Origin: Hirschia sp.
Lineage (GTDB): Bacteria; Pseudomonadota; Alphaproteobacteria; Caulobacterales; Hyphomonadaceae
Assembly (NCBI GenBank): GCA_002709235.1
Contig: PAQI01000024.1
Span: 83,581 to 147,580, forward strand
DNA length: 64,000 bases
Direction of reading: 5' to 3'
A program made the translations under genes and the position numbers. A model generated the notes under the pieces. The model saw only the letters and a program-made list of their open reading frames with translations, had not been told where the DNA came from and made no database searches. Positions 35,369-40,912 of this stretch are shown piece after piece. Positions within the stretch are counted from its first letter, which is position 1, and each line of letters begins with the position of its first letter.

Positions 35369-36052
35369 CTAACCGAATATCCTCTGCAATACGCCCAGAA
35401 CGCCCGTGAATTTCAGGCCCGCATCCGTGACGGCCAGAACCAGACACACACCATCTTCATCCGCGACCGGCCGGTGCATGACATCTGAATCTGCAACGGA
35501 CAACTCACCCGGCCCGTAAGACCCGCGCTCATCTGAAAATCCGCCCTGAAGACAGAGTGTATATTCGCTACCGCCATGCGTATGAAGCGGTACACCCTGC
35601 CCCGGTTGCAGACGGATGATCTGGACATGGGTATCGCCTCCCAGATCCAGATCCATCGAGCGAATACCGGGCCCCGCAAATTTCCAGTCGCGGCTTCCCG
35701 TTTGTTCAAGCACGATCTCGCGCAGTGGATCAGGTAGGCGGATGATCTCGTCCAGCGCTGATACCGCTGAACTCGCCGCCTTGCGTTGCGCTGCGGGCCG
35801 AGATTCCGGTAGGGCGTCGATGCGCGCCATGACGGTTTCCAGTGCATCGGCAGCGATACTTGCGGGAACCTCCATTTCCAGCAGGGCACCGCTAACGATA
35901 TCGGCCTGTGCACCAATATCAGGCTTCATCGCAACCATTGTATCGACAAGCAGGGCCACGCCCGGATCGGCGCGACCTGCCATCAGGGCATCACGATCAT
36001 TCTTTTCAAGTCTGTTGAGAATGTCAGGCGTCATTCTTCTTCCAACTTTCAT
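35369..36052 (-). CDS. ChrR-like cupin anti-sigma factor lacking the N-terminal zinc ligands
   Basis: 227 residues. The C-terminal half is a ChrR-type cupin (HTHGGSEYTLCLQGGFSDERGSYGPGE; His pair and Glu visible). In classical ChrR the first 85 residues form a zinc anti-sigma domain with an H-x3-C-x2-C site; here that region has no His or Cys (VDTMVAMKPDIGAQADIV). So the fold may be kept without zinc. Directly downstream of an ECF sigma gene by 39 bases, as in rpoE-chrR pairs that answer to singlet oxygen or photo-oxidative stress. Confidence 0.82.
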   Translation of the reverse strand: MKVGRRMTPDILNRLEKNDRDALMAGRADPGVALLVDTMVAMKPDIGAQADIVSGALLEMEVPASIAADALETVMARIDALPESRPAAQRKAASSAVSALDEIIRLPDPLREIVLEQTGSRDWKFAGPGIRSMDLDLGGDTHVQIIRLQPGQGVPLHTHGGSEYTLCLQGGFSDERGSYGPGELSVADSDVMHRPVADEDGVCLVLAVTDAGLKFTGVLGVLQRIFG

Positions 36053-36091
36053 TCGCGCCGACCTTTGATTTCAAGGCTGAACAGGCGCATT

Positions 36092-36691
36092 TCACAACTC
36101 TTCAGTTCCTAATCTTGATCGAAGCTTCTCGAAGGCAAGTCTGATTCGTGATTTTACTGTTCCAAGCGGCATATCGTACCGCTTTGCGATCTCACTTTGG
36201 CTGAGCCCTTCATAATAGGCGGCCCTGACAAGATCGGCCTGCTCTGCGGGCAGCTCAGACAAGGCGGCGCGCACACTTGTCTCGATCTGTGAAAGCGAAA
36301 CAAGCACATCGGGTTGCGCCAGCTCCGTCGGTTGGAGTGCGGGTTCATGCTCATCCAGGGCCGGTTTGTTATCCCGCCTTGCGATATCAATCCGTCGATT
36401 GCGTGCAATCCTGAAAATCCAGGTCCCAACAGACGCCTGACGGCGATCAAACTGTCTTGCCTTGCGCCAGACATTGACCATGACATCCTGTGACAGCTCC
36501 TCGGCCTGTGCATCCGAGCATCCCATGCGCAGGAGAAAGCTCTTCACGCGCGGAGTATAATAAGAAAATAGTTCGGCATAAGCTGTCCGATCAGCAAACG
36601 CGGCGACACGTTCCAGCAAAAGCGCGAATCGATCCCGCGTGGCAGCATCCAGCCCCTGCCCGGTCGCAGCCTGAACATGATTGTCTTTCAT
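36092..36691 (-). CDS. ECF RNA polymerase sigma factor (RpoE/ChrR-linked)
   Basis: About 199 residues from Met 36691. Sigma region 2: AELFSYYTPRVKSFLLRMGCSDAQAEELSQDVMVNVWRKARQF; FRIARNRRIDIARR (2.4-like); region 4: LPAEQADLVRAAYYEGLSQSEIAKRYDMPLGTVKSRIRLAFEKLR. Next to a ChrR-like gene, so probably of the ECF11/RpoE group. The frame is open about 68 residues upstream without sigma features. No clear ribosome site marks the start, so 36691, 36700 or 36715 are all possible. Confidence 0.85.
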   Translation of the reverse strand: MKDNHVQAATGQGLDAATRDRFALLLERVAAFADRTAYAELFSYYTPRVKSFLLRMGCSDAQAEELSQDVMVNVWRKARQFDRRQASVGTWIFRIARNRRIDIARRDNKPALDEHEPALQPTELAQPDVLVSLSQIETSVRAALSELPAEQADLVRAAYYEGLSQSEIAKRYDMPLGTVKSRIRLAFEKLRSRLGTEEL

Positions 36692-36750
36692 TCGTGTCAT
36701 GGGACGGTCACACATGGCTGCAATTACAGGACACCCGAAAAGCAGGGCCT

Positions 36751-36764
36751 GCCTAAAATTAGGC
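36751..36764. promoter_or_regulatory. 14-bp dyad upstream of sigma factor gene
   Basis: GCCTAA-AA-TTAGGC, a perfect 6-bp dyad about 60 bases upstream of the sigma-factor start and in the 243-base gap shared with the divergent IalB gene. Operator candidate; the binding protein is unknown. Confidence 0.35.
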
Positions 36765-36885
36765 AATCGGCAGCATTTGACCAGAGCAGGACAAGCGAAT
36801 GCCACCTTAGCACTGCTGTCTATTGGATATTTAAGTTTCGCCAAAGGGTCTTCATGGTTATTCCATTGTCTGGGGGGTGGGGTCA

Positions 36886-36909
36886 CCCATATCAATCCCC
36901 ATATCAGTC
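36886..36909 (+). repeat. Tandem 12-bp repeat in the ialB leader
   Basis: CCCATATCAATC directly followed by CCCATATCAGTC (one difference), 26-49 bases before the IalB-like start codon. The position fits an operator or a leader-RNA element. Confidence 0.4.
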
Positions 36910-36934: not shown

Positions 36935-37447
36935 ATGAAATCATCTGTCCAACGGCTATTTGCTGCGGCCCTGTTAGCGGGTTCGGCGTTTATTCCATTC
37001 AACGCCAGTGCCGATGCAAATGCAGTGGCCAGTATCAAGGACTGGAAAGTGTTCACCGAAGCGGTCGGCGGAGACACAATCTGCTTTGCCGTGACCGAGG
37101 CACGCGACAAGGCCCCGCGTGACGTAACGCATGGGCCCGTGCATTTTTATGTGTCGGCGTGGAAGTCAGGACGCTCCAAGGGCCAGCCATCGCTTCGGGT
37201 CGGATATGATCTGCGCGGCGACATGCCACCAGAAGTGGTCGTCTCCGGCAAGAGATGGCGCATGTATGCCGCTGGCGAGGAAGCCTTTCTGGAGGATCGC
37301 TTCGAAAAGGATGTGATCAATGCCCTCAAGCGCGGTAGTGAATTGCGGATTGAAGCCGTTTCAGACAAGAACACCCGCACAGCCTATCACTTCTCCCTAT
37401 CGGGCTCATCTGCCGCTATCGACCGGGCGCTGGAGTCCTGCAAATAG
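36935..37447 (+). CDS. Invasion-associated locus B (IalB)-like periplasmic protein
   Basis: 170 residues. Sec signal peptide (cleavage near NASADA), then an IalB domain: WKVFTEAVGGDTICFAVTEARDKAP, RDVTHGPVHFYVSAWK, and a Cys at residue 51 that can pair with the C-terminal CK. IalB proteins are named from Bartonella but are general envelope proteins in alphaproteobacteria. ATG 36935 has GGAGA upstream. Divergent from the sigma gene. Confidence 0.82.
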   Translation: MKSSVQRLFAAALLAGSAFIPFNASADANAVASIKDWKVFTEAVGGDTICFAVTEARDKAPRDVTHGPVHFYVSAWKSGRSKGQPSLRVGYDLRGDMPPEVVVSGKRWRMYAAGEEAFLEDRFEKDVINALKRGSELRIEAVSDKNTRTAYHFSLSGSSAAIDRALESCK

Positions 37448-37463: not shown

Positions 37464-39149
37464 TCAACTTGCTTTCAGCCGACCTATGAAATCCGTGGCG
37501 CGCTGTTGCACATTGGCTGCCTGATCACTCATCCGGGCGGTTTCTTCTGAAATGCGCTGAGACGCATCCTGAGTCGTCTTTGCGATTTCAGCGACCTGAG
37601 AAATGCTGTCGGATACCGTTCCAGCGGCCTGAGCTGCACCTTCAACACTGCCAGCGATTTCCCGCGTCGTGGCGCTCTGTTCTTCCATCGCAGAGGCGAT
37701 TGAAGAGGAAATTTCGTTCATCCGCCGAACCACGCTGTCGACCAGTTCGACAGACGTCACCACGCTGTTCGTTGACATGCGTACTTCATTGATCTGGCGC
37801 GCCACGTCCTCGGTCGCTCTCGCTGTCTGGGAGGCCAGGCTTTTGACCTCACTTGCAACAACAGCGAAACCACGTCCGGATTCACCCGCCCTTGCCGCCT
37901 CGATGGTAGCGTTCAGCGCCAGCAGATTTGTTTGCTCAGCAATGTCCGAGATCAGGCTGACCACAGATTCGATCCGTTCCACCACGCCTGTCAGGGCACC
38001 CAGTTGAGATGTCACAGCGGCGTTGGCGTCGGTTCCTTCCAATGCGACTTGGGCGGCCTTGTGCACCTGGCTGGCGATTTCAGCAATGGTCGCAGACATT
38101 TCCTCAGCTGCACCTGCAACCGCCGTGATGTTCTGACTGGAAACCTCGGTGGCACCCGTCACCTCGATCGCGCGGTGGCCTGTGATATTGGCACCTTCTG
38201 TGAGTTCTTCGGACATTGATTGCAGTGTCATGATTGCCGATGACATGGAGGAGATGGACCCCATCACATCCTGTTCGAAGCTGTTGGCGATGCGCTGCAT
38301 TGTCTCGCGTTTCTCGGCGTCAGCGCGGGCCTTCGATTCGGTTTGTTCAGCTTCAAGTTGGCGTGTTCGGGATAAGTTGATCTGGAAAACGGCGAGCGCA
38401 CGAGATAAATCACCAATTTCGTCACCGCGATCCGTTTCGGGGATCTCAACATCCAGTTCACCTTTGGATAGATCCTTCGTGAAGCCGCTGATCCGCGATA
38501 GCGGGCGCGAAACGATTCGGTGCATCATGAATCCCATGCCAATTGACGCCGCCAGCGTAGCCAGGACAGCGAAGATTGCGATGAGGAAGATCTGGTGGAG
38601 ACTGCCTTCGGCAAGGTTAGCGGCATCGGCCGTTCGCGTTGCAAGCCCACCGAGAAGTTCATTCAACGAGTTTGAAACAACGGTCAGGCGCCGACGGCCC
38701 TCGCCCTCACCTTCGCGAGCACGTGCAAGGTCGATCCCGTCGGGACGGTTCATCAGCGCGAACTGCTCGCCCATCCACTCATAAGAATAGGCCCGCCAGG
38801 CCTCATGTGTGGATTCCATGAGCGTTGTCAGTTCTGGCGCAATCTTCGAGATTTCACGGGTCGCCGCAATGAAACCCTGATCGAGATCGTCCCGAGCCTG
38901 TTCATAAGCTATCTGGGCGTCGGCATCAGAGGTCAGAAGGAAGCTGTCACCTTCGAAGGCGTGGCGATTGAGAGCTCTCTCCAGCCCGCCCAGAGTGTCA
39001 AGCGTACCTCGAAACGATGCGATATGTTCATTTTGTTGCTTGGCGGAGTTCACATTCATCAATGTCGCTGCGCCGGTCGTGGCGCAAATGGTTGCGATGA
39101 TGGCAAAGGCTCCAGACGATTTTTGCGTCACCGTAAGTTTGTTCAGCAT
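37464..39149 (-). CDS. Methyl-accepting chemotaxis protein with four-helix sensor
   Basis: 561 residues. TM1 about 10-32, a short helical periplasmic part (about 150 residues; CHASE3/4HB-like, with no Cache fold), TM2 about 188-208, HAMP about 210-262, and a signalling domain with [20 protein letters not shown] near 405-425. No NWETF end. Starts one base after the stop of the secreted Cache-like gene, so they are translated together. The receptor may read ligand through that partner; this is inference. Confidence 0.87.
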
Positions 39150-39150
39150 G

Positions 39151-39783
39151 TCAGGAAAGTCCCAAAGCGCGACGTCGTTGAAGTTCGGTCAGATTGATTT
39201 CAATAGTGCCGGACCCAACAGGTTCACCAGCACTGTCCAATGTAAGATTGACTTGTGCGACCCATATCCCGCGTTCTGAATTGTATTCAGCTTCGTCGAT
39301 GAAAACCACGCCGGCCCCGACATCAAATGTCTTCTGAACCTTGGCTTCATCGCCCTGCCAATAGTCGCTGGTGACAGTACTCTGCCCGACATTCAGGCCG
39401 TTGGCATCCATCACGAAGATTTCAGAATACAGACCACCTGACGCAGATTGAACCCGCAAGAGATAGGTGGATACCGGACTCCCAAGCGCTGTTGCAATCA
39501 AGGGCTGCGCACCATCGGCATCGCGCTCCTTGCGCCATTGTGCATCGAGCGACAGTATTTCTTCCTGGGAAATGCCGCTGCGGCGCTTGTTTGCCGCTTT
39601 CAGGGACAACGAAACGACTTCATTGCCAAGAAATGTCCGAATATCCTGAATGACCCGATCATTGATCAGAGCGATCGATGGTGTAGTGCTCTCCTGAGCG
39701 GCAGCTGTCACGGGTAACCCGATCACGGTGATCAGTGGAAGCGCGAGCAAGAGACGCCGCAAGCCGGTCCTGAAATGGTACAT
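39151..39783 (-). CDS. Secreted Cache/PDC-like sensor protein
   Basis: 210 residues. Sec signal peptide ([20 protein letters not shown]), then a single PDC/Cache-like module: a helix ([30 protein letters not shown]), [52 protein letters not shown], and [31 protein letters not shown] is the typical Cache ligand-loop pattern. No transmembrane or output domain. Sits between an outer-membrane porin and a chemoreceptor gene. ATG 39783 preferred to a TTG two codons upstream. Confidence 0.75.
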
Positions 39784-39802
39784 TGCCAATGACTCCCTCG
39801 TA

Positions 39803-40912
39803 TCAGCCGATTTCGAACTGCGCTCTTATCACGACGGCGTCAGCGGTTTCATTTCCGTAAATTGGGCTGTCTTCCAGCTCCGAATGTGAATAATTGAGCA
39901 TGATGCGAAGGTTATTATCGCGATACCATGTCCCACCGAGCACCACTGTATCCTGGCGACCGCCCTGAATGTTGGCATCATTCAAGTCAGCGACATCATA
40001 TCTGATGGACAATGCATAGGCACCGCCCGGACCGTCCACAACATCGCGCTTGAACAGTCCCGCCTTGTATTTGCGGTGACCGCCCCACATGTAGCTGGCG
40101 TCAAGGTAATAGGCCTGCATGATAGGGTCATCAGTGCAAAGCTGATCGCGACAATCGATGGTGGTGTAACCATATTCCGACTGGAATGACAGGCCGCCCA
40201 GCACATAGGCACCTTCCAGACCGAGAAAGATGTCACTGTCAGAAATGGCCGGCGTCTTGATTGTCTTTGGCGTGCTTGCAGCGAACGGCTTCTGGGAAAA
40301 GCTGAAGGGCGCATCTTCCGCGCCGGTCTTGCGATACCGCGTCGATATCCCCAGGTGCAATACGCTGTCCTTGCCGCTTGGCTGCACGGAATATGTCACC
40401 CGGCCGGACGCTGAGAGGACATCCTGATCTCCGGTGTCATTGGCATCTGGCCCGAACAATCCTGCAGAAAAATTGAACGCCCCCTTGCTACGAAACGCAC
40501 CCACACCGAGCGAACGACCAATGCCATTGATCTTGGCGACCGATGACGCCTCTGTGAATGTGGTTGAATACAGCGACGAGCTCTGCTCCAGTCCGTTCAT
40601 GACCTTGAAATTGCCGACGCGCAGATTGGTGTCGCCGGAAAATTCGAAGAAAAGATCCTTTATACTGACGGAATCGCCTGCAAAATCGACATTGCTCTTG
40701 AATGTTAGATTGTCCTTGCTTCCATTCAGGTCGACACGAAAAACGCGTAGATTGACACCATTTACGAGCTCCTCACCATCTATGGCTGCGTTTTCATAGT
40801 CCATGAACGCATGTGCGCCGACCGAGATGTCGACTTCTTCAGCCTGTGCGAGACCGGCGCTCAAGCCGGTAAGCAATCCGAGCACTGCAAATTTTTGTGT
40901 GACGTTTGTCAT
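39803..40912 (-). CDS. Outer-membrane porin, OprO/OprP-like
   Basis: 369 residues. Sec signal (cleavage after AQA), then a beta-barrel of about 16 amphipathic strands with a C-terminal Phe-rich end (VVIRAQFEIG); FKSNVDFAGDSVSIKDLFFEFSGDTNLRVGNFK is the family opening of the phosphate-selective/OprO-P group. Selectivity is unknown. Transcribed with the Cache protein and chemoreceptor, spacing 19 bases to the first. Its upstream gap is AT-rich and carries a CtrA-type box. Confidence 0.83.
   Translation of the reverse strand: MTNVTQKFAVLGLLTGLSAGLAQAEEVDISVGAHAFMDYENAAIDGEELVNGVNLRVFRVDLNGSKDNLTFKSNVDFAGDSVSIKDLFFEFSGDTNLRVGNFKVMNGLEQSSSLYSTTFTEASSVAKINGIGRSLGVGAFRSKGAFNFSAGLFGPDANDTGDQDVLSASGRVTYSVQPSGKDSVLHLGISTRYRKTGAEDAPFSFSQKPFAASTPKTIKTPAISDSDIFLGLEGAYVLGGLSFQSEYGYTTIDCRDQLCTDDPIMQAYYLDASYMWGGHRKYKAGLFKRDVVDGPGGAYALSIRYDVADLNDANIQGGRQDTVVLGGTWYRDNNLRIMLNYSHSELEDSPIYGNETADAVVIRAQFEIG

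Follow-up and report, generated by a model that had tools for sequence, protein, structure and literature searches.

Background

It is already known that a periplasmic protein can be read by a four-helix sensor. According to PMC9602780, the sensors of the chemoreceptors Tsr and Tar, both methyl-accepting chemotaxis proteins (MCPs), read the soluble periplasmic proteins LsrB and maltose-binding protein respectively, and a table in PMC6381276 lists TorS and LytS with protein ligands. GlnX of Corynebacterium glutamicum, a transmembrane protein with a borderline CHASE3 match, has been proposed to interact with GlnH (PMC9769921), and a 2022 review lists CHASE3 as a sensor domain of unknown function (PMC8846402). 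A 2026 preprint (PMC12889525) puts more than 90% of Cache family members in proteins fused to signalling modules; it describes stand-alone occurrence as atypical for Cache and gives the sCache_heme proteins as free. Here we describe a locus of Hirschia sp. (assembly GCA_002709235.1, contig PAQI01000024.1, positions 83,581 to 147,580) in which a stand-alone Cache protein is encoded directly before an MCP with a CHASE3-like sensor. We refer to the whole stretch of 64,000 nucleotides as the window. In the open-access literature that we searched, we found no report of a free Cache protein paired with a CHASE3 MCP, nor of a stand-alone Cache protein as the one that is read in a dedicated, widespread operon with a CHASE3-like sensor marked by a motif.

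We lean towards reading the two genes as a chemoreceptor in two pieces, in which the free Cache protein would bind a small molecule and dock on the tip of the MCP's helical bundle. The conserved operon links a CHASE3-like MCP to a free Cache protein, and so offers a testable role for CHASE3 as well as for the Cache protein.

The Cache-MCP pair is a conserved unit

Three open reading frames (ORFs) of the window are arranged head to tail, all in the minus orientation: 40912-39803 (369 aa, a porin), 39789-39151 (212 aa, the Cache protein) and 39149-37464 (561 aa, the MCP). The Cache ORF has 212 aa if it is counted from a TTG at 39789; there is an in-frame ATG at 39783, and we take the gene as 39151..39783. 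An earlier note on this DNA had read the same three genes in this order, with a signal peptide on the Cache-like protein, a short helical sensor in the receptor and gaps of 19 and 1 bases. The ORFs, Pfam and the fold models agree with this reading, and the gaps are reproduced when the ATG is used (39784-39802 and 39150).

We scanned for relatives of the Cache protein with one genome per species and kept the best 80 of at least 562 (the best-80 set). This set was picked by similarity, while a class sample and a phylum sample were drawn by taxonomy instead. Alignment A2 holds 79 of the 80 loci (L029 was left out), and alignment A3 holds the 68 with a helical sensor that is complete and adjacent. 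In 74 of the 80 the Cache gene is directly followed by an MCP gene of the same orientation, usually less than 100 bases away. As for the rest, the MCP is upstream in two and the contig ends first in four; three of these four contig ends hold a further ORF whose start is MCP-like or matches an MCP.

The Cache family is matched by 44 of 385 genomes in the class sample, which makes it common enough to matter, and the 60 matches divide into 55 free and 5 fused copies. A same-strand MCP follows 43 of the free copies, while 4 are divergent or convergent to an MCP and 1 follows an MCP. In the phylum sample 36 of 398 genomes match. After removing the 8 of its 44 rows that were already present in the class sample, we were left with a phylum remainder of 36 matches, 12 fused and 24 free; the order is Cache to MCP in 13 of the free ones and MCP to Cache in 2. 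Two loci that a length rule labels as fused, L059 in the best-80 set and L202 in the phylum remainder, are counted as free here. The Hirschia genome itself has 10 MCP matches in 3.8 Mb, so an MCP would rarely stand beside a given gene by placement alone. The gene-order counts show that the neighbourhood exceeds chance, and it is the Cache-MCP pair that is the conserved unit.

The pair is also found on plasmids. Four of 17 plasmid matches were opened and the MCP is next downstream in three: Ruegeria sp. TM1040, Agrobacterium sp. MA01 (on a conjugative plasmid) and Paroceanicella profunda. For the fourth, from Azospirillum brasilense, no MCP is annotated within 4 kb. In the plasmid records some Cache relatives are annotated as "PDC sensor domain-containing protein" and others as "hypothetical protein".

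The free Cache protein

No Pfam or NCBIfam model matches the window's Cache protein at an E-value of 1 or below, and the label "Cache-like" therefore rests on structure. Its AlphaFold2 model has a predicted local distance difference test (pLDDT) score of 95.7 and consists of a single PDC domain. The closest folds in the PDB are extracellular PDC/Cache sensors of kinases and chemoreceptors. The top match with VIA-align is vpHK1S-Z8 (3lid; Z 12.7, root mean square deviation (rmsd) 3.7 over 135 residues), DctB, KinD, WalK and Mlp24 are further matches, and Foldseek returned 112 matches at E-values of 0.001 or below. As modelled, the protein has the PDC/PAS-like extracellular fold of the Cache superfamily. 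Sequence searches only touch on this: at E-values up to 1, dCache_1 is reached by 13 of 87 relatives and MCP-like_PDC_1 by 10 of 87, with a best E-value of 0.0011, and a search of PDB sequences with the Cache-protein profile gave nothing better than 0.52.

Read by eye, the N-terminus has a basic start, a hydrophobic core and a TAAAQ|E site, which we predict to be a Sec signal peptide (39697..39783, minus strand). A crude hydropathy rule finds a hydrophobic segment before the domain in most free relatives (6/6 in the order sample, 60/79 in the best-80 set, 44/55 in the class sample and 20/23 in the phylum remainder). The hallmark of the family is a segment of 20 residues (39340..39399, minus strand), in which ten positions are invariant across the 87 aligned Cache sequences. 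It contains DYWQGDE and sits where Cache folds close over ligands, so that it is perhaps the lid of a ligand pocket.

We considered two other identities for the protein. A stand-alone heme Cache (sCache_heme) is ruled out because the window protein contains no cysteine and hence no CXXCH. The two-lobed fold of solute-binding proteins was not found in the model, which is a single PDC domain.

The receptor and the tip of its sensor

The third gene (37464..39149, minus strand) is an MCP by definition, with HAMP (E-value 7.6e-9) and MCPsignal (E-value 1.2e-31) matches in Pfam after two transmembrane helices, which hydropathy places at residues 13-31 and 190-208. The signalling domain (PF00015) covers residues 363-523 (37581..38063, minus strand). 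Between the transmembrane helices the model is a four-helix bundle with a pLDDT of 94.9, and its nearest PDB matches are four-helix sensors. The best of these is 3va9, the sensor of a histidine kinase (Z 16.7, rmsd 1.9 over 127), which is tabulated as CHASE3 in PMC6381276. The modelled sensor thus has the four-helix bundle expected of CHASE3 or of four-helix bundle (4HB) sensors. In Pfam the window's own sensor gave no CHASE3 match, HAMP alone being found, while 61 of the 69 rows of A3, the alignment of partner MCPs, match CHASE3 at E-values of 0.1 or below (best 4.2e-30).

Conservation in the bundle is concentrated in two places. Residues 66-80 (segment 1; 38910..38954, minus strand) have a conservation of 0.406 and residues 119-150 (segment 2; 38700..38795, minus strand) of 0.438, compared with 0.17-0.29 for other periplasmic stretches and 0.17-0.22 low in the bundle. 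Among 127 sliding windows segment 2 takes fourth place. Of the 25 periplasmic sensor positions with the highest conservation, 24 fall in residues 67-82 and 121-151. The helices of the model break at 73/76 (the turn between helices 1 and 2), 133/136 and 147/150. Since the bundle runs up-down-up-down and the model breaks there, we place the conserved segments at the membrane-distal ends, and we propose segment 2 as the candidate docking site for the Cache protein. In relatives segment 2 has the motif W..Q...M..P.T.D.AR..E; the window has Y121 and G138.

The tip motif follows Cache pairing

We built a profile of the tip from the best-80-set loci alone and applied it to CHASE3 proteins of 22 genomes. 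The CHASE3 search of these genomes gave 43 rows, of which 17 are Cache-adjacent MCPs and the remaining 26 come from 19 other proteins. Every one of the 17 paired MCPs scores between 30.3 and 63.1; 4 of them duplicate a training sequence, whereas 13 differ from all of these. Of the 19 distinct unpaired proteins, 17 do not exceed -0.8, and the other two reach 35.3 and 38.5 (L230 and L220). For comparison, the maximum of 600 scores from shuffled sequences was 3.3. If relatedness is ignored, this association has a hypergeometric probability of 2e-8, which becomes 3e-7 when the paired group is taken as the 13 new MCPs. We judged "unpaired" on flanks of about 1.5 kb, and on wider ones for L255, L256 and L262-L266. 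The scored loci include five without a match to the helical-sensor profile (L235, L263, L264, L265 and L266); one of them, L265, is an ORF of 159 residues that is possibly no receptor. The tip motif is also present in two of the three plasmid partner MCPs, with scores of 62.4 and 51.3.

As a regular expression, the motif is found in 99 of 113 paired ORFs with a helical sensor, in 0 of 42 paired ORFs without one and, among 20 unpaired ORFs, in 2. Because some loci are counted here more than once, we prefer the profile.

A comparison of distance matrices points the same way. Over 85 non-redundant pairs, the distances between Cache proteins show a correlation of 0.62 with those between sensors and of 0.52 with those between the signalling domains of the same MCPs. 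The partial correlation of Cache and sensor is 0.44 with the signalling domain held constant and the reverse is 0.23 (reached by 0 and 2 of 2000 permutations), values that a partial matrix test can inflate because the signalling domain is less variable, which is a point against relying on them. Distances in the tip are slightly ahead of those in the stem (partial 0.31 versus 0.22). We take the matrix correlation, which comes from sequence comparison, as support for the Cache protein being an input of the sensor and not as proof.

How the pair may work, and what weighs against it

If the two proteins are one receptor, we picture the following. The exported Cache protein would bind a small ligand in the periplasm and dock on the four-helix, CHASE3-like sensor of the MCP, at the tip that points away from the membrane. 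Either this contact or the change from free to loaded Cache protein would then shift the sensor helices, with the signal presumably running in this direction, and HAMP and the MCP hairpin would relay the shift to CheA. The host genome encodes CheW-domain proteins and flagellins, so a chemotaxis output is available. In the lineage of the window a porin would have been added in front, where it probably lets the ligand through.

Besides the limit on the matrix test, a number of observations weigh against this reading. No MCP lies near 7 of the 55 free Cache genes in the class sample, nor near 9 of the 24 in the phylum remainder. One of the seven is the first gene of a tandem Cache-Cache-MCP (L175:3978-7087), where two free Cache genes in a row are followed by one MCP. 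The two unpaired CHASE3 MCPs that carry the tip motif have no Cache gene within 2.7-4.5 kb on each side (L255 and L256). Both of their genomes encode the Cache protein at another place, and these MCPs may be served in trans or may no longer need it. There are also pairs without the motif, namely one training pair, with the lowest score of -2.3, and the partner in Ruegeria sp. TM1040, with -16.9. With a score of 31.3 the tip in the window itself is close to the lowest of the paired MCPs; it has Y in place of W121 and G in place of T138, and by its sequence it is a weak version of the motif. It could also be that the tip is itself a site of ligand binding.

Partner MCPs that lack the helical sensor also occur, in the class sample (18 of 43), the phylum remainder (9 of 13), the best-80 set (5 of 73) and the order sample (1 of 6); the partner of L059 is absent from these counts. 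Pfam named no sensor in the eight such partners that we scanned, and several of the sensors look Cache-like by eye. Tip docking does not account for these partners and so cannot be the sole mode: the Cache protein may have several ways of docking, or the linkage may be due to something else. For the proposal in the earlier note that a free Cache protein goes with a receptor that lacks its own Cache domain, this means that the conserved operon stands and universality does not, given the 18 of 43 class pairs that differ. Its further proposal that the receptor reads the Cache protein is favoured, on sequence evidence, by the tip motif tied to pairing and by the matrix correlation.

The strongest competing explanation, which we nonetheless consider unlikely, is that the MCP senses its ligand directly through the bundle, like Tar, McpN and PcaY, and that the Cache protein is a co-expressed periplasmic buffer or carrier. 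Four-helix sensors that bind ligands directly are among the nearest folds of the window sensor (Vc1313, 8bsa, Z 16.5; PcaY_PP, 6s33, Z 15.7; McpN, 6gcv, Z 12.7), and the two tip-motif MCPs without a Cache neighbour would fit. Direct sensing does not, however, predict that the tip motif follows Cache pairing or that sensor distances track Cache distances beyond the signalling domain.

We give slightly less credence to docking without a small ligand, where the Cache protein would be a constitutive subunit or an inhibitor that reports the state of the envelope (redox, ions or membrane stress). The extracellular domains of WalK/YycG are among the top fold matches of the Cache protein, which is in line with this idea. 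The hallmark DYWQGDE, at the presumed ligand-closing site, speaks against it, as does the fusion of the same Cache domain to Peripla_BP_5 binding proteins.

The two-piece receptor with a small ligand thus keeps our preference for the pair. A wider form of it, which we put forward only tentatively, is that Alphaproteobacteria have a class of chemoreceptors in which the Cache domain has moved out of the chain and the CHASE3 bundle has become a docking post, marked by the tip motif, and not a pocket, with one free, diffusible Cache protein possibly serving several motif-bearing receptors in trans. If this is true, one branch of CHASE3 gains a function. As for the pair in general, many marine and soil bacteria seem to have divided a navigation receptor into a free sensor outside the inner membrane and a receptor in the membrane by which it is read.

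The porin is an accessory gene

The first gene of the window's operon (39803..40912, minus strand) encodes an outer-membrane porin of the Porin_O_P family (PF07396; E-value 1.6e-38, 133.4 bits against a cut-off of 20.9). Our upstream search was confined to this family, and it found such a porin in the same place in 12 loci with the pair, which are L002-L007, L011, L025, L064, L081, L121 and the window. The three genes thus recur together elsewhere, as the idea of a triad in the earlier note demands. Within the order sample the porin is present in all Cache-bearing genomes, 7/7 counting the window and 6/6 without it. Elsewhere it precedes 4 of 80 loci of the best-80 set and one Cache copy in each of the other two sets: out of 60 in the class sample, where that copy is the window's own, and out of 36 in the phylum remainder. 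Roseibium aggregatum IAM 12614 (L029), for instance, has the pair and no porin. The porin is therefore an addition to the pair, and we rejected the triad as the functional unit. The porin as an entry gate for the ligand, which the earlier note had suggested, fails as a general rule on the same counts, most pairs having no porin of this family.

The window's own family tells us more about how the porin came and went. Of 18 genomes of this family that we compared, 6 carry the porin (at least 246 bits), the Cache protein and a matching MCP sensor (at least 207 bits). The other 12 have no Cache protein, and their best porin and sensor matches are at most 100 and 111 bits. Since six genomes have all three and twelve have none at such levels, the triad was gained or lost as a block in this family. 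In one genome (G289; L005/L217) the Cache-MCP pair is intact beside a porin that is split into two ORFs (L217:4718-5828), which is a pseudogene or a sequencing error. A three-part device, in which an essential porin hands the ligand to the Cache protein, would account for the 12 loci, the 7/7 and the all-or-none pattern, and we regard it as very improbable in view of the many pairs without such a porin, the intact pair beside the split porin and Pho-box-like sites at chance level in the window.

We had also considered phosphate sensing from the name of the porin family and rejected it: the window has 6 Pho-box-like sites against 6.29 expected, and none lies before the operon. Separately, genome G965 has a second Porin_O_P gene right behind a different MCP (L249:2645-6259), with a gap of about 160 bases and no Cache gene between, and the linkage of porin and chemoreceptor may recur by itself.

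Other architectures of the Cache domain and the surroundings of the locus

Among the relatives in long reading frames, we inspected 16 distinct proteins and scanned 9 with Pfam. In some distant relatives the Cache domain forms the C-terminal part of a protein of 404-475 aa whose front resembles a binding protein; of five of these scanned, one touches SBP_bac_3, weakly. In two other scanned proteins the Cache domain lies behind a Peripla_BP_5 binding protein (E-value about 1e-145), and in two more it is the in-chain sensor of a membrane histidine kinase. No chain among the 220 Cache-profile ORFs of the fetched loci has both the Cache profile and the MCP signalling profile. These arrangements fit a Cache domain that serves as an input module, whether built in, lent to a binding protein or free.

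Two of the fused proteins come directly after an MCP (L152:2655-6401 and L158:2621-5648; about 430 aa, with a binding-protein-like front and a C-terminal Cache domain), and L152 has a free Cache gene, an MCP and a fused Cache gene in succession. At L156:2571-6346 a Peripla_BP_5 protein with a C-terminal Cache domain overlaps the following histidine kinase by 4 bases, and this kinase has HAMP and a dCache_1 match slightly below the cut-off.

We tried to infer the ligand from neighbouring genes, and the result was weak and inconsistent among loci. On the megaplasmid of Ruegeria sp. TM1040 (L258) the pair lies between a LysR/formate dehydrogenase group and genes for a tripartite ATP-independent periplasmic (TRAP) transporter, which is a possible hint at a small carboxylate. 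A gene that we identified by eye as formate-tetrahydrofolate ligase precedes the pair in three related loci (L018, L023 and L034).

The operon in the window looks complete because it is bounded by a divergent rlmN (41179) and a convergent IalB-like gene ending at 37447. The IalB match of the latter has 21.9 bits, slightly below the cut-off of 22.1. Past the 3' side of the operon, with the IalB-like gene, there is a pair of genes for an extracytoplasmic function (ECF) sigma factor and a ChrR-cupin protein (35369-36895, minus strand). A promoter scan of the window gave 2 sites compared with 2.6 in shuffles, both within genes and on the opposite strand. In the assembly, contigs C40 and C44, and likewise C19 and C45, have identical MCP and CheW-domain scores, which suggests redundant or duplicated contigs.

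Comparison with known systems

We take PstS-CtpL to be a further case of chemosensing assisted by a binding protein. The locus resembles LsrB-Tsr and maltose-binding protein-Tar in that a soluble periplasmic protein would be read by an MCP sensor; in the window this soluble protein, with predicted export, is encoded with the receptor. It is unlike them in that those helpers are solute-binding proteins of transport, whereas here the helper is a stand-alone Cache/PDC protein, and its gene and that of the receptor make up a two-gene operon.

TorT-TorS and XylFII-LytS are closer on the receptor side, as they have four-helix sensors on which a periplasmic protein docks. Both sensors are fold matches of the window sensor: LytS from the XylFII complex (5xsj) with Z 15.8 and rmsd 1.9 over 122, and TorS from the TorT complex (3o1h) with Z 12.8. 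This likeness between models and structures may reflect only the common arrangement of helical bundles. They differ from the pair in their output, which is a kinase, and in their partner, which is a binding protein, where we have an MCP and a Cache protein.

GlnH-GlnX would likewise join a transmembrane protein with a borderline CHASE3 match to a periplasmic protein, but GlnX is no MCP and GlnH is a binding protein and not a Cache protein. The sCache_heme proteins are free Cache proteins as well, and differ in having CXXCH and heme where the window protein is cysteine-free. Finally, PctA, Mlp24 and TlpA share with our locus the use of a Cache fold as the periplasmic input of an MCP; in those receptors the Cache domain is within the receptor chain, and in the Hirschia pair it is a protein of its own.

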